Shown here: piece by piece, positions 2,367 through 23,410 of the stretch | Position numbering within the stretch: position 1 is the first letter of the stretch | Layout: the number at the start of each line of letters is the position of its first letter | From: a virus | Length of the DNA stretch: 25,938 nt | IMG/VR virus record: IMGVR_UViG_3300043436_002184 | Span: 1 to 25,938 of that record | Strand: one strand, 5' to 3' | Translations under genes and position numbers: made by a program | Notes under the pieces: model-generated | What the model was told of the DNA's origin: nothing | What the model saw: the letters and a program-made list of their open reading frames with translations, nothing else | Databases searched by the model: none

Positions 2367-3479
2367 ATGGCTTTAGGATATTGCCCCGCGATGCTTATGC
2401 ACATGAAATATGTGATAGGCCAAAACGCACCCGAACACAAAATCACTCCAAGTGGTTTATTACGCGCAACACTTGAAAAAGGCGCACAAGCGACACCTGT
2501 TCAAGATGCGCTTTCTTTAAGTAATCAAGCAGGTCACATCAAGGACTTACGCTTAAAGTATTACAATCGTACAATCCCTGCTCAAATGTCAACAAGCGAC
2601 AACTGCGATGTTGACTTGGTACAGGCATACGATGAAATGACCATCGACACAACTTCTATTGTGAAGTTTGGTTTACATTTCGATGATGCAACAATCGCAC
2701 GTTACTGCGATGAGGCATCTGCTTCCGTTCAAATCGGTTCAGCACCAACACCATTTATGCAAGAACACCTTGCAGGTCTTATGGCTGCAATGAATGGATT
2801 TGTAGGCAAGATTGACCAAACATTGTTAGGTCAAGTTGTATGGGGTACTAACGCAGTATCAGGCAACAACTCTGCCGTAACCGTTAACTTTAACGATGAC
2901 AACACTATCAACTTGTTTAGCGAGGGTTGGACAAAAGTATTGTCCGACTACCAAGTGAACGAGGGTTATGGCAAACCTATCGTAATTGGTAGTGGTTTAG
3001 TAAATAGCGCAATGATACAGGCGAGCAATGCCGCAATGACTCAATATGCGCAGTTGAACAACAACGCTGCCGTTGGGAATATCGATTGGTATCACGACCT
3101 TTACGCAACATCTGCTTGGGGTTCAAACCAATTCGGAGTGTTTATGCCGGGTACATTCGGACTTGTTGAACTTGACAGATACAGAGGTTTCCGTGCGAAG
3201 AAGTTAGGTACTTCAACGTTTTGGAATATGGCCGTACCTGTTGATTTACCGGGTGCAGATGGTATGTTGGGAATGTTAAACATCGACTTTCAATTAAAGG
3301 AAATCGATTGCCCACAAGAAACAACCGTTGGATATAGCGAAACCACACTTGGCGCAGGTTACTCATTGATTATGAGCAAGCGTTTTGCATTGTGGCAAGT
3401 ACCATCGGATGCTTACCTTGCTGCTGACCGCTTAACAGGCAACAATGGCGCACTTCGTTACACCGCGACAAACGCTTAA
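2367..3479 (+). CDS. Major capsid protein
   Basis: This 370-residue protein follows the scaffold gene, and its size suits an HK97-fold capsid subunit. The region DLRLKYYNRTIPAQM with the SIVKFGLHFDD strand resembles the N-arm and E-loop region. The central segment (HLAGLMAAMNGFVGKIDQTL) looks like the spine helix, and the C-terminal half has short beta strands with aromatic residues (YRGFRAKKLGTSTFWNMAVP). The start is the ATG after CAACAACAATAATAAA, an A-rich leader without Shine-Dalgarno. Fold assignment is by context and composition. A structural search would be needed to place it in a named capsid family. Confidence 0.85.
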   Translation: MALGYCPAMLMHMKYVIGQNAPEHKITPSGLLRATLEKGAQATPVQDALSLSNQAGHIKDLRLKYYNRTIPAQMSTSDNCDVDLVQAYDEMTIDTTSIVKFGLHFDDATIARYCDEASASVQIGSAPTPFMQEHLAGLMAAMNGFVGKIDQTLLGQVVWGTNAVSGNNSAVTVNFNDDNTINLFSEGWTKVLSDYQVNEGYGKPIVIGSGLVNSAMIQASNAAMTQYAQLNNNAAVGNIDWYHDLYATSAWGSNQFGVFMPGTFGLVELDRYRGFRAKKLGTSTFWNMAVPVDLPGADGMLGMLNIDFQLKEIDCPQETTVGYSETTLGAGYSLIMSKRFALWQVPSDAYLAADRLTGNNGALRYTATNA

Positions 3480-3482
3480 CAA

Positions 3483-4493
3483 ATGGCTTGTCTACAAGGA
3501 TTAATAAAACTTGCAGGATGCCAAATTACAGAGGTATCGGGGGCTGTTTACTCGTTAAACAGCCTACCCGGTATTTCATTGAAATCATTTGAGCAAGTAG
3601 CCAATAGTGAACAAGTCAACTACCTCGGTGTTTGGGATGCCATCAACGAGCGTGCAGAGGCACGAATAAAGAACCAAATCATCAGCGCAATGTCCACACG
3701 TTACGACATTAAACGTGTGCGCAGAACCGTATCAGTAACAGGTCAACCCGAAGTGGCTGCCGTTAGTGACAACGTGTTTAAGGGGATGGTGTTTGTGCAA
3801 GCGTGGACACTCAACGAGAATTGGGTGATTAGTCCATTTCAAACGCTTCAAGTTGACCGCATTTCTTTTTATAAATCGGCAACAAACACGGTTACAACAC
3901 TTGACATTAAGTTTGTCAACTACATCACAAAAGAAGTATTATTCACAAAGACCTTAACGATGGCGGATTTATCGACAGGTTGGAATGAAATCAGCATATT
4001 AAAAGAATTTAACGCACCATTGTTGGCCATCGGCTTCGAAGACAAAGATGTCAACGGTGTGACCTATCAAACGGCAGATGTTAACGCAAATTTTCAATCG
4101 TGTTTTTACGAGTGCTATGGTGTTGATGGTTGCGGTTACATTTACGGCTTTGCAGAGAGCAACGGCAATTACGTGCAAAATCAAACCATCAATTCACTCC
4201 GTGCTACCGTAACACTCGGATGCAGTTACAACGCTGCCGTGTGCAACAATAGGTTGTTATTTGCGGAAGCATTTTGGTATTTACTCGGCATCGAATTTTT
4301 GGAAGAGCGACTTTACTCGGAACGTGTAAACTTTTACACATCGATTAAACGCGAGGAAGCAAAAGAGTTGATATCTTTGTACCAAGTTAGATACGAAGAA
4401 GCATTAAAGAACGCATTAGGTGGCTTAAAATTTGAGTGCGATGCGTGTTTGGAGTGCAATAGTTTAGTACAAGTATTCAGTCAAATACCATAA
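3483..4493 (+). CDS. Head-tail connector/virion structural protein, Cys-rich
   Basis: This 336-residue protein directly follows the capsid gene (3-base gap) and abuts the next gene. The centre is beta-rich (VTTLDIKFVNYITKEVLFTK), like a carbohydrate-binding or jelly-roll domain. The C-terminal part is helical (NFYTSIKREEAKELISLYQV). It is notable for Cys pairs: CFYECYGVDGCGY and CDACLECNS. Position after the capsid suggests an adaptor/connector or a head-decoration protein. The beta-rich centre fits decoration better, and the helical end fits adaptor. Neither is proven. Confidence 0.7.
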   Translation: MACLQGLIKLAGCQITEVSGAVYSLNSLPGISLKSFEQVANSEQVNYLGVWDAINERAEARIKNQIISAMSTRYDIKRVRRTVSVTGQPEVAAVSDNVFKGMVFVQAWTLNENWVISPFQTLQVDRISFYKSATNTVTTLDIKFVNYITKEVLFTKTLTMADLSTGWNEISILKEFNAPLLAIGFEDKDVNGVTYQTADVNANFQSCFYECYGVDGCGYIYGFAESNGNYVQNQTINSLRATVTLGCSYNAAVCNNRLLFAEAFWYLLGIEFLEERLYSERVNFYTSIKREEAKELISLYQVRYEEALKNALGGLKFECDACLECNSLVQVFSQIP

Positions 4494-4949
4494 ATGCAGA
4501 TAACGGACAACATACCATTTGTAATAGGCACAATGCTTGCAAAGTTTCGGGAGTTAGACAATCCCGAAACAATATCACGCGCTGCTGCTTTGGCCGTGTT
4601 GCCCGAATTACACGAGCGCATACACGTTAAGGGATTGAATAGCAAGGGTAGCAAGATTGGAACGTACTCAAATAGCTATATGAAAGTGCGTGAACGCTAC
4701 AATAGGACTGCCGATAAGCATGTTGTTGCATCGTTGACAAGACAACTTGAAGGCGCATATACTCTAAAAGCAACTGAAAACGGATATTCGATTGATAATT
4801 TAGGCAACACAATAGAAGGAGATAGCAAAACTAAAACAGATTATTTAACAGAAAAATATGGTGACATTTGGCAGTTGACCGAACACGAAATCGAAATCAC
4901 TCGCATAGCTGCCGAAGCTACCTCACAAGCAATATTGAATGCAAAATAA
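4494..4949 (+). CDS. Neck / tail-completion protein (virion morphogenesis type)
   Basis: This 151-residue protein has the layout of the gpG/HK97-gp10-like neck and tail-completion family. It starts with a helix (AALAVLPELHERIHVKG), then KIGTYSNSYMKVRERYNR. Next comes a segment on binding or shape (KHVVASLTRQLEGAYTLKAT) with the beta pair NGYSIDN. It ends with YLTEKYGDIWQLTEHEIE before a last helix. In related Bacteroidota phages this gene follows the connector and comes before the tail terminator, the same order as here. It begins immediately after the upstream stop and overlaps the next gene by 11 bases. Confidence 0.7.
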   Translation: MQITDNIPFVIGTMLAKFRELDNPETISRAAALAVLPELHERIHVKGLNSKGSKIGTYSNSYMKVRERYNRTADKHVVASLTRQLEGAYTLKATENGYSIDNLGNTIEGDSKTKTDYLTEKYGDIWQLTEHEIEITRIAAEATSQAILNAK

Positions 4950-13395: not shown

Positions 13396-13671
13396 ATGGA
13401 ATACCAAAAATACATTGATTTAGGATTTGAAAGAACCGATATGAGTTGTAATGTCGAGTTCAAACAAACAGGCTATCACGGATTTGCTTTAGAGAAAAAA
13501 GTAAATAAAAAACAAATGGTTTGTGTAACGAGTGGTGAACTTGATAAACCCAAACTATACATTAAAAAACGGAATAGTGAAACATATCACATTATACCAA
13601 TTTCAACAGAAGCGGTTATTGATTTGTTCAGCAAGTCCGAAAATATTGATTATATGACTTCTGCTTGTTAG
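13396..13671 (+). CDS. 91-residue hypothetical protein
   Basis: The protein (MEYQKYIDLGFERTDMSCNV ... YHIIPISTEAVIDLF) is mainly beta, with an N-terminal strand-turn-strand and a C-terminal helix. It sits between element B and direct repeat D copy 2, and has an A-rich leader. It uses more A/T-ending codons than the structural genes. Function unknown. Confidence 0.65.
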   Translation: MEYQKYIDLGFERTDMSCNVEFKQTGYHGFALEKKVNKKQMVCVTSGELDKPKLYIKKRNSETYHIIPISTEAVIDLFSKSENIDYMTSAC

Positions 13672-13679
13672 CATTGGTT

Positions 13680-13700
13680 ATAACTACCCGCTACCCGCTA
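13680..13700 (+). repeat. Direct repeat D, copy 2
   Basis: Matches 10931-10951 in 20 of 21 positions, the exception being G at 13690 (A at 10941). Preceded by GGTT, so ...GGTTATAACTACCC, which resembles the right end of element B (TGTTATAACC). Confidence 0.7.
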
Positions 13701-13730
13701 ATTATTAACGCTTATACAACAATAAAACCT

Positions 13731-14936
13731 ATGAACGTATTATCATTATTTGATGGAATGAGTTGCGGACAACAAGCTCTTGATAGACTTGGAATAAAAG
13801 TAGATAATTACTTTGCATCCGAAATCGACAAGTATGCTATTCAGGTAACGATGGCTAACTATCCTAACACTATTCAACTTGGAAGTGTTGTGAATGTAGA
13901 TGGTTATAGTTTACCAAAGATTGATTTATTACTTGGTGGATCGCCTTGTCAAAGTTTTTCGTTTGCCGGTAAACGCAAGGGAATGAGTACTAAATGCGAA
14001 ACTGAAATACTAACGCTTGAACATTACCTTGAATTAAAATCAGAAGGTTACGAGTTTGAAGGGCAAAGCTATTTGTTTTGGGAGTATATGAGGTTGCTGA
14101 ACGAATGCAAACCTACTTACTTTTTACTTGAGAATGTAGAGATGGGCGAAAAGTGGGAAAGGGTTTTAAGCAAAGCTATCGGTGTAAATGGCATCCACAT
14201 TAATTCTGCATTAGTTTCAGCTCAAAATAGGAAACGTATCTATTGGACTAATATTGGTATGCAACCAAGCGGTTTGTTTGGCGATTTGGAAAGTATAATT
14301 GAACAACCAAAGGATAGAGGGATATTGCTTAAAGATATTTTAGAAAGTGAGGTTGATGAAAAGTATTTTTTGAGTGAGAAGACAGTTGCAACAATAACTA
14401 GGCACGGAAATAAAATTATTGATGATAAAGAAAACCCTAAACAAAGTTGCACTATACACGCAAATTATTTTAAGATGGGCGGAAGAGACCAACAATACAT
14501 TATACATAATATGATGCCACGTTCATCAACATCGGGCAAAGGTGGAACAGGACATTTAAGTAGAAACGATGGTAAAACATATTGTTTAGATACAGGGAAT
14601 ACAAATGCGGTGGAGATATTTTTAACATCAAAAGACAAAAGGCTAAAACAAACTATTGATGAAAACGATTTGATAGATGGTGAGGTAAAAGCACTTGATG
14701 TTTATAATCAATCAATACACGATAGATACCCAACACTTAAAGACCCAAGGGATAATGACAGAGCTTTATTTGATGGATCACGCATCCGTAGACTAACCCC
14801 AATCGAATGCGAACGACTACAAACCGTTGCAGAAAACTACACAAACCACGTTAGTGATAGCCAACGCTATAAGATGCTCGGCAACGGTTGGACAATAGAA
14901 GTAATTATTCACATTTTAAAATACATAACCCTATGA
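13731..14936 (+). CDS. C5-cytosine DNA methyltransferase 1
   Basis: ATG 13731 gives 401 residues. The earlier frame start (13665) would run through repeat D. Motifs in order are MNVLSLFDGMSCGQQALDRL (I, SAM binding), DLLLGGSPCQSFSFAG (IV, Cys 73 catalytic), LLENVEMG (VI, residues 134-136 ENV), SAQNRKRIYWTNIG (VIII), a variable target region (about 180-330), RIRRLTPIECERLQ (IX) and YKMLGNGWTIEVIIHILK (X). It methylates cytosine at C5 of a specific DNA site, probably to protect phage DNA against host restriction. No partner endonuclease is evident nearby. The stop overlaps the next start (ATGA 14933). Confidence 0.9.
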   Translation: MNVLSLFDGMSCGQQALDRLGIKVDNYFASEIDKYAIQVTMANYPNTIQLGSVVNVDGYSLPKIDLLLGGSPCQSFSFAGKRKGMSTKCETEILTLEHYLELKSEGYEFEGQSYLFWEYMRLLNECKPTYFLLENVEMGEKWERVLSKAIGVNGIHINSALVSAQNRKRIYWTNIGMQPSGLFGDLESIIEQPKDRGILLKDILESEVDEKYFLSEKTVATITRHGNKIIDDKENPKQSCTIHANYFKMGGRDQQYIIHNMMPRSSTSGKGGTGHLSRNDGKTYCLDTGNTNAVEIFLTSKDKRLKQTIDENDLIDGEVKALDVYNQSIHDRYPTLKDPRDNDRALFDGSRIRRLTPIECERLQTVAENYTNHVSDSQRYKMLGNGWTIEVIIHILKYITL

Positions 14937-15127: not shown

Positions 15128-15461
15128 AACTAAAACAAGGAAAGCTATCCGAGTGGTGTCCGATGCGTATCGGGATAGCATTCGACCTGCAACTATTGAA
15201 ATTAAACATTGGGATATGTGGCTACAATACAACAACGGCTTAACAACAACTGAAATAGCAATGGTGCACAACACAACGGTACACGATGTCGTGGATATTA
15301 TCAGCGATGTGGTCGAGCGGTTAAAGCGCAAAGTGTCAAAGTTAGATGATGACTTTATGAGCGTACACCAAGCCGAAGCGTTCCGCAACAGGATAAAGCA
15401 GAATGTTGAATTGGCAATGTTGTCGGGTAGGCGAGTGGTGACTATAATGAGTGAGGTGTGA
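15120..15461 (+). CDS. Helix-turn-helix-like protein
   Basis: ATG 15120 gives 113 residues with a basic N-terminus (MAKTKTRKAIRVVSDAYRDS). A region at about 38-65 (YNNGLTTTEIAMVHNTTVHD) has the spacing of a sigma-70 region 4-like helix-turn-helix. It is followed by a coiled helix (VVERLKRKVSKLDDDFMSVH). It may be a DNA-binding regulator or part of a terminase/sigma-like set. It lies between two methyltransferases and ends in a TGATG overlap with the second. An unrelated ORF on the other strand (15092-15478) was rejected. Confidence 0.6.
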   Translation: MAKTKTRKAIRVVSDAYRDSIRPATIEIKHWDMWLQYNNGLTTTEIAMVHNTTVHDVVDIISDVVERLKRKVSKLDDDFMSVHQAEAFRNRIKQNVELAMLSGRRVVTIMSEV

Positions 15462-16543
15462 TGGAGATAATAAAACATAACTTCCCTTACAAATGGACTT
15501 TGAAGGATGCAGTATTTACAAAAGACAAAGGAAAAGTATTCAGTTGCTTTGCCTGTGGTGGCGGTTCAACTATGGGTTATAAATTAGCTGGATTTGATGT
15601 ATTAGGATGTAATGAAATAGACCCTAAAATGATTGAAGCATACAAAGCAAACCACAACCCAAAATATGCTTATTTAGAGCCTATACAGACCTTTAAATTA
15701 AGAACTGATTTACCTGATGAACTTTACAATTTGGATATTTTGGATGGTTCGCCACCTTGTAGTAGCTTTTCAACTGCCGGAAATAGAGATGAAGATTGGG
15801 GAGAAGAAAAGCAGTTTAGAGAAGGACAAGCAATGCAAGTTTTAGATACACTTTTTTTCGATTTTATAGACCTTGCTAAAAAACTGCAACCAAAAGTAGT
15901 AATAGCTGAAAATGTAAAAGGATTATTGGTAGGAGAAGCAAAACAGTATGTAAGACAAATTTATAGGGAATTTGATTTGGCAGGATATTATGTGCAACAT
16001 TGGCTGTTAAATGCTGCTGATATGGGAGTGCCACAACGTAGGGAACGAGTATTTTTTATAGCAATGAGAAAAGATTTAGCTGAACCATTTTTGTATAATG
16101 CTGATATGTTTACAGTAGTTCCAAAATTGGAATTAGAGTTTAAGGGCGAGAAAATACTATTTAAAGAGTTTTATCAAGAGGGTGTTGATGATAGACCTGC
16201 ATCAAAGGGCAAAATGTTTGAGTATTGGCAGAACAGACAAAAGGGAGACACTCTTTTTTCAGATAGTATTTTTAGAAAAGAAGGTGTAAAAAGGTGTTTT
16301 ACAAATATGTATATTTATGCTGATGGAATATCCCCAACCTATACAAGCAATTCAGATGTTATTTATTTATTTGATGAATATAGAAAGCCGAATAAATTTG
16401 AAAGCTGTTGTATTGGTTCTTATCCTTTAGATTACAATTTTCATAAAGTGCAATATAATTACTTAATTGGAATGAGTGTTCCACCTGTAATGACTGCACA
16501 AATAGCAAAACAAGTATATGAGCAATGGTTATCAAAACTATAA
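15461..16543 (+). CDS. C5-cytosine DNA methyltransferase 2
   Basis: ATG 15461 (overlapping the upstream stop as TGATG) gives 360 residues. Motifs: VFSCFACGGGSTMGYKLAGF (I), LDILDGSPPCSSFSTAG (IV, Cys 100), VVIAENVKGL (VI), DMGVPQRRERVFFIA (VIII), a target region (about 210-300), then YNYLIGMSVPPVMTAQIAKQ (X). It is clearly a distinct subfamily from methyltransferase 1 (GSPPCSS versus GSPCQSF), so the site recognised probably differs. Codons are markedly A/T-ending compared with the flanking early genes, suggesting separate acquisition. Confidence 0.9.
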   Translation: MEIIKHNFPYKWTLKDAVFTKDKGKVFSCFACGGGSTMGYKLAGFDVLGCNEIDPKMIEAYKANHNPKYAYLEPIQTFKLRTDLPDELYNLDILDGSPPCSSFSTAGNRDEDWGEEKQFREGQAMQVLDTLFFDFIDLAKKLQPKVVIAENVKGLLVGEAKQYVRQIYREFDLAGYYVQHWLLNAADMGVPQRRERVFFIAMRKDLAEPFLYNADMFTVVPKLELEFKGEKILFKEFYQEGVDDRPASKGKMFEYWQNRQKGDTLFSDSIFRKEGVKRCFTNMYIYADGISPTYTSNSDVIYLFDEYRKPNKFESCCIGSYPLDYNFHKVQYNYLIGMSVPPVMTAQIAKQVYEQWLSKL

Positions 16544-18659: not shown

Positions 18660-19392
18660 GCTATTCAAAATACATTGCAGCCAAATCGGCAAGATAAGTG
18701 GCCACGTTGGATTAACAGATAATCAAACGATAAAGTTAAACGAATTAGTTGAGCGAAAAAAATTAGGAATTAAGCCACTAACTGCTAATATGGAACTTGA
18801 GTTAATTGACTTAATCGAAAAGAAAAACAATCCAAAGTTACCCGATACTTGCACAACCTATTTAAAGGAATGGTACGCAAATGACCGCGAGGAGATTAGA
18901 AACAAGTACATCGACAAGGGTAACATGGTTGAACTTGACCTTATCGACTTCATGGCCGAGCAGTTGAACCTCGGAATGGCCGAGAAGAACACCATCACGA
19001 TGCACAATGAGTATGTTGTTGGAACGGCTGATGTTGTTACACGCGACACAATCATTGATGTCAAGGCCGCGTGGAGCATCAAGACCCTACACGATGCCGT
19101 TACGAGTGGTATTGATAAGGACTACGAGTGGCAAGGGCGCGGTTATATGATGCTATGGGATAAGCCGAATTTTGTGGTGTTTCACGGCCTGCTCAACACA
19201 CCCGAAGAAGCTAACTACGGAGTTGAGGTCAGTTACGATGATATACCTGCTGACCAACGTTGGGTAGCGTATAAGGTGCAACGTGATGTTACCATTGAGC
19301 AACAGATAATACAGAGGGTGATTGAGTGCCGGGAGTGGTTGGAGCGGTATGATATAGCGGTGCGAAATTCGATAGGCCGCTTGCATACTTAA
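18652..19392 (+). CDS. YqaJ-type recombination exonuclease (PD-(D/E)XK)
   Basis: This 246-residue protein carries the YqaJ/lambda-exo type core. KGNMVELDLIDF (residues 89-100) supplies Glu 94. YVVGTADVV (121-129) supplies Asp 127. IIDVKAAWS (134-142) supplies Asp 136 and Lys 138. YEWQGRGYMML (158-168) supplies the Q-x3-Y substrate motif. It would chew 5' ends to make single strands for phage recombination and replication, with the upstream protein as a likely partner and the DUF3127 protein as ssDNA binder. Promoter TTG of the next gene lies at its 3' end. Confidence 0.85.
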   Translation: MDKLFKIHCSQIGKISGHVGLTDNQTIKLNELVERKKLGIKPLTANMELELIDLIEKKNNPKLPDTCTTYLKEWYANDREEIRNKYIDKGNMVELDLIDFMAEQLNLGMAEKNTITMHNEYVVGTADVVTRDTIIDVKAAWSIKTLHDAVTSGIDKDYEWQGRGYMMLWDKPNFVVFHGLLNTPEEANYGVEVSYDDIPADQRWVAYKVQRDVTIEQQIIQRVIECREWLERYDIAVRNSIGRLHT

Positions 19393-19410
19393 AATAAATT
19401 AGTATATTTG
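19381..19410 (+). promoter_or_regulatory. Bacteroidota-type promoter for the RNA leader and nuclease
   Basis: TTG at 19381-19383 and TATATTTG at 19403-19410 are separated by 19 bases. The start point would be near 19414, so the transcript begins almost exactly at hairpin 1 of the RNA element. Confidence 0.8.
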
Positions 19411-19416
19411 CAAAAT

Positions 19417-19513
19417 TGTTACGGTTCGACATTAAAGTAACATAACCTTATTGACCCATTTAACCGAGTACAGAAGTCGAACCCTGTACAAAGTTAGATG
19501 GGTTTTATTTTTT
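19417..19513 (+). ncRNA. Structured RNA leader with kissing-loop potential
   Basis: Hairpin 1: TGTTAC (19417-19422) pairs with GTAACA (19437-19442). Its loop carries GGTTCGAC (19423-19430). Outer stem: CCCATTTAAC (19455-19464) pairs with GTTAGATGGG (19493-19502), with one G.U, extendable to A19454-T19503. Nested hairpin 2: GTACAG (19468-19473) pairs with CTGTAC (19484-19489). Its loop carries GTCGAACC (19476-19483), the exact reverse complement of the hairpin 1 loop. A T-rich run (19503-19513) follows and the nuclease ATG is at 19514. It could end transcription, or control translation, of the nuclease. Not recognised as a known Rfam class. Confidence 0.7.
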
Positions 19514-20212
19514 ATGAAAATATTTGTAATATCTACCCCAAACAAAAAAAGCAAAAGGCAGATAGTTTATGCCGAAGATTTTGCTCACGCAATCCAACTT
19601 GCAAAAAAAGCAGAAAATTATGTTTACACAGAAAAAGAATTGTACGATATGAATACAATTGACAATGAGGAAAATTTTAAAAATAAATTACACGCATTTT
19701 TTTACCCAATGTTTGAAGTACAACGTGAAGTAACAAGCGAATGTGGAAAAGCAAGAATTGATATGTTATTGACCGTACATGGTACGTATCATTTTGGTTT
19801 GGAATGTAAAAAAATTAACAAAAAGAAAGGCGAAGAAATTGGCGAGTATATTCAGCAAGCACACGAATATTCAAAATTAAAATGGAGGTACAGAAATGGT
19901 TTGTTTATTCAAGCACCAATATTTATTTGCCCGGCATTGTCTTATGATTATTTATTAATGAATGAAAAAACATTTGTAATTGATAACCAAACTTATCATC
20001 AAGACCGACACGATAAATTTCACAGGCATCACACCGTTAACGGAATGCTTGGTGTGTGGAACGTTGGCGAGGTTAGAAAAAATAAATTTGGGTTTCAGTT
20101 TTCAATGAATAACAAATCATTTTATGACTATCGCAGTTATAGGAATGACATATCAGCACAGGTACACGAAATCAACTACAACACCTACATCGAACGGCTA
20201 TGCAACCAATAA
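19514..20212 (+). CDS. PD-(D/E)XK nuclease-like protein behind the RNA leader
   Basis: ATG 19514 gives 232 residues. An upstream start at 19451 is inside the RNA element and is rejected. The core is GKARIDMLLTVHGTYHFGLE plus CKK, with Asp 83 and Glu 97/Lys 99 forming the D...ExK metal site. An N-terminal domain of about 60 residues (MKIFVISTPNKKSKRQIVYA) precedes it. The C-terminal half is rich in Tyr/His (YHQDRHDKFHRHH). Substrate is unknown: junction-resolving, restriction-like and mobile-element endonuclease functions are all possible. It overlaps the next gene by 13 bases. Confidence 0.7.
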   Translation: MKIFVISTPNKKSKRQIVYAEDFAHAIQLAKKAENYVYTEKELYDMNTIDNEENFKNKLHAFFYPMFEVQREVTSECGKARIDMLLTVHGTYHFGLECKKINKKKGEEIGEYIQQAHEYSKLKWRYRNGLFIQAPIFICPALSYDYLLMNEKTFVIDNQTYHQDRHDKFHRHHTVNGMLGVWNVGEVRKNKFGFQFSMNNKSFYDYRSYRNDISAQVHEINYNTYIERLCNQ

Positions 20213-21075
20213 CATTCAACTATTACGATGCCGACATCAAGAGCAGCTTACCGCTTGGCAATGTTACGCTTGAATATTTTATAAACGCAATTCGCAATCC
20301 TAAAATAGACATCAAGCACATTTTTGAGCGCATACGCATAGCCGAAGAAGTTGGTGATATGGCAACCAAGCAAGCATTGAAATCAAAGCTATATTCATTC
20401 ACTCCATGCGTGTACGTTCAAGGTGCGCGAAAGTATGAGAACATCAAGCATTGGACTGGATTGCTTGTGTTGGACTTCGACCACTTGGAAGTTGATTATG
20501 CAGTTGAGTTCAAGTCATACTTGTTTGATGAGTATAAATTCATAATTGCTGCATGGCTATCGGCATCACGGCATGGTGTGAGGGCATTGGTAAAAATACC
20601 GCAAGCGCATTCGGTTGAGGAGTTCAAGCAATACTTTGCTGCGATTGAGCGACATTTGAACTGCTACAATGGTTTTGATAAAGCACCAAAAAATTGTATT
20701 TTGCCCCTCTTTTTTTCATACGATGCTGAAATTTTACACCGCGATAACGCTCAAACTTGGGATGAGAAGTACATTGAACCGATACCACCACCTGTTAAGC
20801 AGTATATTATCAATGACAAAACATCGGCAGTTGAGTGCATCATTGCCAAGAAAATAAACATCATAGTTGATAGCGGACATCCTCAACTACGTGCCGCAGC
20901 GTATTTACTTGGAGGTTATGTGGGAGGAGGCCACATAGACCATTCGGATGCGGTAAGTATTATTCACAACTTAATTGAAAGCAACGCATATTTGAGCCAA
21001 AAAGCAAGTATTTACAAAAAAACTGCGGTACAAATGATAAACAAAGGAGTTAACCAACCAACTTATATTAAATAA
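20200..21075 (+). CDS. VirE_N/BT4734-like replication protein
   Basis: This 291-residue protein has a region at about 67-135 (TPCVYVQGARKYENIKHWTG, LLVLDFDHLE, AAWLSASRHGVRALVKI) matching the VirE N-terminal/BT4734-like domain. That domain is common in Bacteroidota mobile elements next to primase-helicase genes. LDFDHL resembles the acidic strand of prim-pol type enzymes, so a priming role is possible. The C-terminal part (about 220-291) is helical. It stands directly before the SF3 helicase (1 base gap), so the two probably act together at replication initiation. Confidence 0.75.
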   Translation: MQPITFNYYDADIKSSLPLGNVTLEYFINAIRNPKIDIKHIFERIRIAEEVGDMATKQALKSKLYSFTPCVYVQGARKYENIKHWTGLLVLDFDHLEVDYAVEFKSYLFDEYKFIIAAWLSASRHGVRALVKIPQAHSVEEFKQYFAAIERHLNCYNGFDKAPKNCILPLFFSYDAEILHRDNAQTWDEKYIEPIPPPVKQYIINDKTSAVECIIAKKINIIVDSGHPQLRAAAYLLGGYVGGGHIDHSDAVSIIHNLIESNAYLSQKASIYKKTAVQMINKGVNQPTYIK

Positions 21076-21076
21076 C

Positions 21077-22654
21077 ATGAGCGAAAAATTTAAAAAACCC
21101 GAAGCAAACCCATTGCTTAATCCTGTTGACTACTTCAACTTTCACGGCTCATTCGTGTCAATATTTGATGGGGTAAAAAAAGTAAACATCAAGTCCGAAA
21201 CTGAAATATGTTTGCAACACCCGGACAACCTCGACCCAAATGAACTGAATAAAGTCACGTTTACACTTAACAAAAACAATGTTGTTGAGGTGGTCAAAAA
21301 AAACGATTATCAACTTGCCGTGGGTGCGAAGTTGTCAAAGTTTATGTTGCTATCTGCCGTTAAATTCAAAGGTGATAATTTCGCAGCTATGTCATACGTT
21401 CACTTTACGCTGATGAAATCCGAAATACCTTACATTCGGGTAGGTACTGATTATTTTAAATTGATTGATAAAAAAGACCGATTTGGCTCACACAATCGAT
21501 TGCTCAAACCTTGGAAGAAAGATGAAATCAAACAAGACCACGGAAAGCAATTGTTGAACATGATTTTTAAATTTGATGATTTCACTATTTACCCAGATAA
21601 CATCACTTACAAACCTGTGCTTAACAACTGCTATAATTTATATGCAAAATTTGCACACGATAAAGCTATTGATGATATTGAACAAAATAACATTCCTGTT
21701 ACAATGGGATTGATGAACCATATTTTTGGCGAACATTTAGAACACGGTTTGAAATACATGAAAATTTTGTATCAGTACCCGCGACAAATTGCACCTGTAT
21801 TGGCACTTGTTTCTTCGGAGCGTGAAACAGGTAAGACCACATTTTTAAATTGGATACAGATGTTATTTGGCGAAAATTCAACACTCATTAACCCATCCGA
21901 CTTAACATCGAATTTCAATGATGCGTATGCTACAAAAAACATCATTATGATTGATGAAACTACCATTGACAAAGTGCATGCTATTGAGAAGTTAAAATCA
22001 TTGGCAACGGCAAAAACAATATCGGTTTCGCAAAAGTTTGTGAGTCATTATTCCGTACCTTTTTACGGTAAAATTATTTTATGCACAAATAAAGAAAGTG
22101 ATTTTATGCGTATTGATGAGGAAGAAATTAGATTTTGGGTGCGAAAAATTAAACCTATAACCGGGAAGAAAAACACCAACATCGAAAATGACCTTAAAAA
22201 CGAAATACCAAAATTTATTAAATACTTATTGCAACTGCCAGAAATAGATTTTAGCAAATCGCGCATGGTGTTCACCAAGGAAGAAATAATGACCGAGTCG
22301 TTAGAAATAGTTAAGGAAGAAAGCAAAAGCCAATTACGCAAAGAAATCGAATATCTATTTATTGATTGGTTTGCTAACAATGACAATATCGATATGGTTG
22401 AAGTAACGGCAAAGGACATTAAAGAAAAATGGTTTGGCACTAACAATCAAATTTCAATCAGTTACATCCGCAAAGTTTTAAAGGATGAAATGAAAATGGT
22501 CAATTTGGAAACAAAAAAGTACAAAGGGTTTCCAGATGCCAATTCGACTTCGCAAAAGACAGGACTGCCGTTTGTGTTCACAAATCCATACCGAGTTTAT
22601 AATGAGGATGTTAGGAAAAATAAGGCATCAATCGAGGATGCGGTTGATTTCTAA
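21077..22654 (+). CDS. SF3 replicative helicase (D5/DUF5906-like)
   Basis: This 525-residue protein has its ATPase core from about 240 to 360. Walker A is SSERETGKTT (246-255), Walker B is IIMIDE (289-294), and the sensor strand is KIILCTNKE (332-340). The arginine-finger-like segment is RIDEEEIRFWVRKI (345-358). The N-terminal half is an unassigned domain (no clear primase motif), and the C-terminal 130 residues may form a winged helix (VTAKDIKEKWFGTNNQISIS). It unwinds DNA at phage replication. Upstream VirE_N gene and downstream AT-rich repeats fit an origin-linked helicase. Confidence 0.85.
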   Translation: MSEKFKKPEANPLLNPVDYFNFHGSFVSIFDGVKKVNIKSETEICLQHPDNLDPNELNKVTFTLNKNNVVEVVKKNDYQLAVGAKLSKFMLLSAVKFKGDNFAAMSYVHFTLMKSEIPYIRVGTDYFKLIDKKDRFGSHNRLLKPWKKDEIKQDHGKQLLNMIFKFDDFTIYPDNITYKPVLNNCYNLYAKFAHDKAIDDIEQNNIPVTMGLMNHIFGEHLEHGLKYMKILYQYPRQIAPVLALVSSERETGKTTFLNWIQMLFGENSTLINPSDLTSNFNDAYATKNIIMIDETTIDKVHAIEKLKSLATAKTISVSQKFVSHYSVPFYGKIILCTNKESDFMRIDEEEIRFWVRKIKPITGKKNTNIENDLKNEIPKFIKYLLQLPEIDFSKSRMVFTKEEIMTESLEIVKEESKSQLRKEIEYLFIDWFANNDNIDMVEVTAKDIKEKWFGTNNQISISYIRKVLKDEMKMVNLETKKYKGFPDANSTSQKTGLPFVFTNPYRVYNEDVRKNKASIEDAVDF

Positions 22655-22911
<257 letters not shown>

Positions 22912-22939
22912 TTGACATTCAAAACAATGCTTATATTTG
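22912..22939 (+). promoter_or_regulatory. Promoter for the VRR-NUC-like gene
   Basis: TTG at 22912-22914 and TATATTTG at 22932-22939 are 17 bases apart. The start point would be 3-4 bases after 22939, almost at ATG 22946, giving a nearly leaderless mRNA. Confidence 0.65.
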
Positions 22940-22945
22940 CAACCG

Positions 22946-23410
22946 ATGACAATCAAAGACCTCAACACCTACCTATTTGAAATCAAGCGCAGGGACAACC
23001 CAAACTTCCCCGAGCATGCATTGGTTCCTGTTAAGCATTCGGACAAAACTGCAAACGGATTAGAAAAGGCCATTGTTGCTTTTCTGCAAGCAGAGGGATG
23101 GCAAGCCGAACGTATAAAGAACACAGGCCGATATGTAGATGAAAGCTATACCTATGTGAATGTAATGGGTCAAACACGCAAGGCGGGAACGGGGCGGTAT
23201 ATTAAGGGAACAGGAACGAATGGAAGCGCAGATTTATCGGCCACAATCAAAGGCCGAGCGGTCAAGGTGGAGGTTAAAATAGGCAAGGATAGGCAATCCG
23301 AAGTGCAGAAGAAGTACCAAGCAGACATTGAACGCGCTGGGGGTGTGTATGTGATTGCCAAGGATTTCGAAACGTGGCATGGATGGTATGCTAAATTCAT
23401 CGCAGGTTGA
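22946..23410 (+). CDS. VRR-NUC/Hjc-like PD-(D/E)XK nuclease
   Basis: ATG 22946 gives 154 residues. The TTG at 22937 lies inside the -7 box and is rejected. The core is GLEKAIVAFLQAEGWQAERI (38-57) with Glu 40, GSADLSATIKGRAVKVEVKI (93-112) with Asp 96, Glu 109 and Lys 111, and QSEVQKKYQADIERAGGVYV (117-136). This small single-domain nuclease fits the VRR-NUC or Holliday-junction-resolvase-like group, cutting branched or flapped DNA at the end of replication. The promoter sits 6 bases upstream. Terminase genes follow. Confidence 0.75.
   Translation: MTIKDLNTYLFEIKRRDNPNFPEHALVPVKHSDKTANGLEKAIVAFLQAEGWQAERIKNTGRYVDESYTYVNVMGQTRKAGTGRYIKGTGTNGSADLSATIKGRAVKVEVKIGKDRQSEVQKKYQADIERAGGVYVIAKDFETWHGWYAKFIAG

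Follow-up and report, generated by a model that had tools for sequence, protein, structure and literature searches.

In phages P4 and P1, the CI and C4 immunity RNAs are short, terminated leaders that lie 5' of replication genes and contain self-complementary segments. ColE1 RNAI/RNAII and other kissing-loop pairs are characterised by a short loop-loop complement with variable words. The put RNA of HK022, a cis-acting antitermination RNA of lambdoid phages, comprises two stem-loops within approximately 70 nt (PMC9378689). In T4-type phages, hairpins ahead of homing-endonuclease genes (I-TevI, segB and mobE) hide the ribosome binding site (PMC2988022).

Here, we analyzed a stretch of viral DNA of 25,938 nucleotides (IMG/VR record IMGVR_UViG_3300043436_002184; hereafter the window), which contains a leader resembling each of these systems in part. 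As in P4 CI/C4 (RF01695), a short self-complementary leader, from which a terminated RNA is expected, precedes replication genes; unlike those, several different leaders of this class occur per phage, some of the carriers are reported to be lytic, and a single ~95-nt RNA contains both halves of the complement, one in each of its two hairpin loops. The Rfam model for C4 antisense RNA (RF01695) matched neither the window nor 123 kb of carrier sequence. In contrast to ColE1 RNAI/RNAII, a single RNA provides both loops, and plasmid replication control is not concerned. With the T4-type hairpins the leader shares structured RNA extending from a promoter to a phage endonuclease gene, whereas its structure stops 5' of the AUG and the class also precedes non-nuclease genes (PMC2988022). 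With put it shares two stem-loops near the start of a presumably early phage transcript, putL lying just downstream of the early promoter and the nascent RNA acting in cis; put, however, has conserved RNA polymerase-contacting bases and, as described, no loop-loop helix (PMC9378689). Compared with that description of put, the leader class appears to have free bases but fixed pairing and includes a terminator-like stem and T tract. A G+C-bearing stem followed by a U tract ahead of a gene is likewise the layout of an intrinsic terminator or attenuator, although the leader shows no visible antiterminator pairing. Overall, attenuators and put-type leaders appear closest to it in the way they work, although the leader does not show all defining features of any of these kinds.

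Architecture of the leader in the window

Inspection of positions 19403-19516 revealed a Bacteroidota promoter followed by hairpin 1, by hairpin 2 with a stem around it, and finally by a T tract and the ATG. The first-pass annotation had described here a structured RNA with exact 8-base loop complements, placed directly behind a consensus promoter and ending in a terminator-like outer stem with a U run, and all of these pieces were recovered where it had put them:

19381..19383, + strand, -33 element TTG, from the sequence, with a 19-nt spacer to the -7 box
19403..19410, + strand, -7 element TATATTTG, fitting TAHHTTTG of F. johnsoniae (PMC6847099)
19417..19442, + strand, hairpin 1 (TGTTAC/GTAACA; arms 19417-19422 and 19437-19442), beginning at about +3 of the predicted transcript
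19423..19430, + strand, kissing word L1 (GGTTCGAC) in loop 1, exact complement of 19476-19483, from covariation
19443..19452, + strand, single-stranded linker, A-rich in the class, a degenerate copy in the window
19453..19464, + strand, 5' arm of the outer terminator-like stem, from folding
19468..19489, + strand, hairpin 2 (GTACAG/CTGTAC; arms 19468-19473 and 19484-19489), nested in the outer stem
19476..19483, + strand, kissing word L2 (GTCGAACC) in loop 2, from sequence and covariation
19493..19504, + strand, 3' arm of the outer stem, from folding
19503..19513, + strand, T tract TTTTATTTTTT immediately behind the outer stem, where the terminated RNA is predicted to end

The -7 element TATATTTG, which together with the TTG fits the Bacteroidota promoter, is the same in all closest relatives of this leader, and a TTG peak at the window-type spacing was found in 19 of 98 elements. 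Since the G of TTTG is numbered -5 in Flavobacterium promoters (PMC6847099), applying the F. johnsoniae numbering to TATATTTG predicts a +1 at about 19415, two bases 5' of hairpin 1. A generic sigma-70 and terminator scanner reported nothing on the window, because it is built on E. coli promoters and limited to 3-8-nt loops.

Loop 1 comprises 14 nt (GGTTCGACATTAAA), the first 8 of which form the kissing word, and loop 2 comprises 10 nt (AAGTCGAACC), in which two unpaired bases precede the exact 8-nt complement of the loop-1 word. This octamer has no second occurrence in the window and hence no trans partner there. The GTTAC/GTAAC stem of hairpin 1 is the defining mark of what we refer to as the window-type family. 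The outer stem (19455-19464 with 19493-19502) contains one G-U pair and can be extended to 12 pairs. The leader has an MFE z-score of -3.6 against shuffles, and its nested MFE fold is unaltered with both loops occupied by kissing; in the predicted fold, the U tract and the AUG (ATG 19514) lie outside the outer stem and the start codon is not sequestered.

Genes downstream of the leader in the window

Three consecutive open reading frames follow the leader:

19514..20212, + strand, 232-aa ORF, predicted PD-(D/E)XK-like nuclease, HSDR_N E=0.014, below the cut-off
20200..21075, + strand, BT4734-like primase ORF, next in the operon, PF08800 E=5e-14
21077..22654, + strand, DUF5906 primase/helicase ORF, PF19263 E=4e-18, phrog_1156

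The 232-aa ORF is a probable PD-(D/E)XK nuclease, judging from a D-x13-E-x-K motif that is typical of this group, and the segment RIDMLL...GLECK is conserved among its relatives. Comparison with the PDB returned no relative, and the AlphaFold model of the putative fold has a pLDDT of 33. Similar leaders had initially been linked to small GIY-YIG endonuclease genes in Bacteroidota; a GIY-YIG identity was rejected for the window nuclease, as there was no Pfam support and no GIY-YIG match beside the weak HSDR_N hit and the D-x13-E-x-K motif.

Several further observations concern the same region. The window encodes the nuclease in a single ORF, whereas L004 and L005 (both 3001-3701) have two, a 49-aa ORF for the N-terminal part and one of 184 aa. 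The interval between the helicase and the next gene (22689-22952) contains a stretch rich in AT dinucleotides (IYIYIY and YIYIYI in translation), which is also present in L004. At 22932-22952, a second TATATTTGCA promoter lies a few bases 5' of the next ORF (VSR/resolvase-like), which suggests a leaderless mRNA. Two C5 cytosine methyltransferase-like ORFs (13665-14936 and 15458-16543), judged by their translations only, are also encoded in the window.

Related leaders and controls against chance

A nuclease search yielded five loci. At one of these (L004), the nuclease is 67% identical and promoter and layout are as in the window, with a different RNA whose kissing pair, ACCGCCAA/TTGGCGGT, again consists of exact complements. 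The leader of L010 is that of L004 with its kissing helix lengthened by one base on either side (ACCCGCCAA/TTGGCGGGT). In L005 and L022, the leader of the window stands ahead of another nuclease type, indicating that leader and gene recombine separately.

Two further kinds of leader were encountered. Matches in L007, L008 and L012 were set aside, having the promoter and a T run with the kissing pair absent; these are large phages in which a TATATTTGCA promoter and a T-rich leader precede a single-strand-binding-protein-like gene, possibly representing another leader type. L218 (410-560) contains a longer, more branched leader-like element with the loop words GATTGA/TCAATC ahead of a 61-aa ORF; the element is also found in L005 near 4600-4740, and the 61-aa ORF is missing from the primase-helicase interval of the window.

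Patterns consisting only of promoter and T run returned more unrelated sequences with the same architecture. The cleanest test was a search of viral contigs by promoter and hairpin-1 stem alone, with nothing specified downstream. For the GTAG/CTAC stem, this gave 26 contigs with 23 distinct sequences, and in 23/23 loop 1 was matched further 3' by an exact 7-nt complement, located within an outer stem with a T tract. The GTTAC/GTAAC stem gave 31 distinct sequences in which the complement reached 7 nt or more, including L287, a false positive in coding sequence; matches to this stem without a complement were also without outer stem and T tract. A promoter-first finder detected 108 unique elements at a score of at least 33 compared to 10 in reversed sequence, and 64 compared to 0 at a score of at least 38, in agreement with a shuffle control. 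The finder is biased to strong promoters and words of at least 7 nt. After filtering, about 100 unique elements with 58 loop words remained at 112 loci, some of which overlap on one contig; the word count is approximate, as L203, L264 and L223-type matches of the finder as well as L287 are probably false positives.

Chance pairing was rejected as an explanation, since mismatched combinations of loop 1 and loop 2 reached 7 nt in only ~2.5% and reversed sequence gave almost nothing. The initial argument that so many perfect pairings would hardly arise by chance is thus borne out by the 23/23 GTAG-type matches, the 64:0 ratio against reversed sequence and the covariation presented below. Rfam scans at the gathering cut-off gave no matches in the window or in 123 kb of carrier sequence, with E-value scans reaching chance level only, and no prior description was found in the open-access literature. 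The class thus resembles a family of RNA switches not described so far, with the window copy as one member.

Most elements place hairpin 1 4-8 nt after TTTG, i.e. at about +1, and the motif AAAnATTA is present in 21/58 of the A-rich linkers, compared to 2.5 expected. An ORF within 100 nt together with a T-rich tract was found for 100/104 unique elements, with the ATG located 8-26 nt past the stem in 88/100. Among 59 leaders with a 14-26-nt gap to the ATG, T accounts for 68-88% at positions +1 to +9 past the outer stem, so that the T tract adjoins the stem end in the class as in the window, and A is found at -3 of the ATG in 92% where room allows. From the position of the T residues and the separate A(-3), we conclude that the T tract belongs to the stem and that the start codon lies in a Bacteroidota context of its own.

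The same positions bear on a possible but rather doubtful alternative, according to which the leader would be a 5'-terminal structure for protection or translation tuning, with a locked hairpin against decay and a U-rich stretch and AUG offered without a Shine-Dalgarno sequence. It would fit the start of hairpin 1 at the predicted +1, the fairly tight distance between stem and AUG, and the occurrence of hairpins near homing-endonuclease start codons in T4-type phages (PMC2988022). However, the T tract keeps its position relative to the stem and not to the AUG, with A(-3) being separate; a U tract would be needless for protection, and the start codon is accessible in the predicted fold.

Covariation and specificity of the loop words

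Across homologous leaders, the loop complement and the stems are retained via compensatory changes. In the GTAG family (24 sequences), 96.8% of the cells are paired, compared to 79.2% in shuffles and 31-49% in slid alignments. Its kissing helix is paired in 168/168 cells, with two-sided changes at 4/7 pairs and up to four pair types, and shows zero one-sided changes and zero G-U pairs in these 24 sequences. The kissing helix of the window-type family (17 sequences in one register) is 98.5% paired, 7/8 pairs having changed on both sides, again with no one-sided change and no G-U pair among the 17 sequences. Slid controls across both alignments reached 29-49%. Compensated loops were found in near-identical leaders (GTGGAAG/CTTCCAC vs GTGGACG/CGTCCAC, and, as a second case, TCGGTCAG/CTGACCGA vs TCGGCTAG/CTAGCCGA) and between the phages lillamy (GTGAGACG/CGTCTCAC) and mumin (GTGGAACG/CGTTCCAC). 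G-U pairs occur in the outer stem of the GTAG family, which is consistent with RNA, and no paired base is conserved across subtypes of the class. Taken from these alignments, the two-hairpin kissing structure is well supported. Loci with several elements showed no cross-match of at least 7 nt and no repeated word (L188 is one element listed twice).

Carriers and gene context

Cultured Flavobacterium phages carrying the leader are hattifnatt9-1, mumin9-1, lillamy9-1, 11b and elemoC. Hattifnatt9-1 has three elements, ahead of a helicase gene, an HNH gene and a small ORF preceding the primase operon, and mumin9-1 has two. Leaders are also present on many IMG/VR contigs, the hosts of most of which are assigned from the promoter and named relatives. 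Some phages hold 3-5 elements, each with a different word, the densest case seen being L227 (9455 bases; five elements, five words). In L251 (MN812207, 9358-9477), the annotated start of the hattifnatt gp034 helicase (9441) falls inside the leader, and ATG 9477 is the likely start.

Downstream genes identified by Pfam encode NUMOD4/HNH and GIY-YIG proteins, N6_N4 methylases, DEAD helicases, Prim-Pol, BT4734/VapE primases and DUF6291/DUF7833; initiator and PD-(D/E)XK nuclease genes also follow leaders. A role as phi29-type packaging pRNA was rejected, the neighbours being replication, recombination and endonuclease genes rather than packaging genes. The proximity to primase and initiator genes would also suit a DNA-level element, i.e. 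a replication origin or hairpins in single-stranded DNA. We consider this extremely improbable: the element is strand-specific and always codirectional with the gene, with a promoter 5' and a T tract 3', none of the 112 loci has elements on both strands, the outer stem contains G-U pairs, and several copies occur per phage.

The idea of a mobile RNA-plus-nuclease module, put forward in the first-pass annotation, survived in part. Cassette mobility is supported in one place: the leader and HNH gene of mumin and hattifnatt are missing from lillamy, where an unrelated gene follows the same upstream gene, consistent with insertion of the mumin HNH nuclease together with its leader. Nuclease specificity was lost, as primases, helicases, methyltransferases and initiators are preceded by the same class, and the expected GIY-YIG genes account for two ORFs (L247, by Pfam match, and L273, by sequence) while most genes are of other types. 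Most parsimoniously, endonuclease genes move together with the promoter-leader in front of them. A stronger version, in which the RNA would serve the nuclease as guide or scaffold, could draw on the lillamy comparison, on the frequent HNH/NUMOD4 genes 3' of GTAG-type leaders and on the GIY-YIG gene in L247; it appears very improbable in view of the other gene types and of identical leaders before different nucleases.

The variability of the words raises the question of a trans-acting product. Close relatives with the same methyltransferase gene have hypervariable words (ACTGGAACT, CTGGTACTA, AAGTAAGGC), and words recombine apart from the gene, as the window leader before another nuclease in L005 and L022 illustrates. 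A terminated RNA might act by base pairing, similar to P4 CI RNA or ColE1 RNAI, in autoregulation, copy-number control or exclusion of phages with the same word. We regard this as unlikely, since both partners reside on one RNA and cis contact suffices. Furthermore, a strict pattern found the architecture in none of 85,000 bacterial and archaeal genomes, a limited search with a single pattern, and a covariance model with strict filters, a weak test, found none in 396 Bacteroidota genomes. Prophage immunity was rejected on the same, limited grounds. Some carriers, the mumin phages, are reported to be lytic only (PMC7077304).

Proposed mode of action

We consider it reasonably probable that the feature in the window belongs to a widespread kind of 5' leader RNA of Bacteroidota phages that acts in cis as an attenuator. 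Host RNA polymerase would start at the TAHHTTTG promoter, which places hairpin 1 almost at the beginning of the transcript. Hairpin 2 would emerge after the A-rich linker, and its loop would kiss loop 1 intramolecularly through 7-9 Watson-Crick pairs, giving a pseudoknot built around the terminator-like stem. By default, the leader would act as an intrinsic terminator, releasing an RNA of ~95 nt, unless a condition or factor sensing the shared fold or the kissing state lets polymerase read into the downstream DNA-metabolism gene, which, going by the functions of these genes, is presumably expressed early. The free choice of kissing word would keep several leaders of one phage from cross-pairing.

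In mumin, a single-strand-binding-protein gene begins two bases after the HNH gene; transcripts must therefore pass the terminator-like stem, unless a promoter lies inside the HNH gene, and termination would be partial or regulated. Some U tracts are interrupted (e.g. GGCATTAATTTTTTT and GGATTTAACTTTTTT), which may weaken termination. The leaders show no alternative pairing that could serve as an antiterminator, loop complementarity ending at the loop boundaries, and a switch must accordingly act via the kissing loops, via a bound factor or via polymerase itself. That readthrough is set by a host component or polymerase itself is plausible because the carriers span siphovirus and podovirus genera. 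The leader may also affect translation or the stability of the mRNA, the AUG being 8-26 nt away in most cases.

More tentatively, the attenuator-like leaders may form a put-like RNA regulon based on shape only, with many words, one fold and no conserved contact sequence, or the orthogonal words may serve as address labels. In such a regulon, host or phage transcription machinery would recognise the fold, turn early operons on and reprogram RNA polymerase.

If the proposed mode of action is true, phages of a bacterial phylum that ranks among the most abundant would control genes at a further level, through RNA, which has been overlooked because sequence-based RNA searches miss elements that conserve only pairing. 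The leaders would also explain how endonuclease genes that move come with regulation of their own. Cultured, harmless aquatic phage-host pairs would then be available for studying transcription control by kissing loops, alongside some 58 natural loop pairs, with no cross-pairing among those that share a phage.
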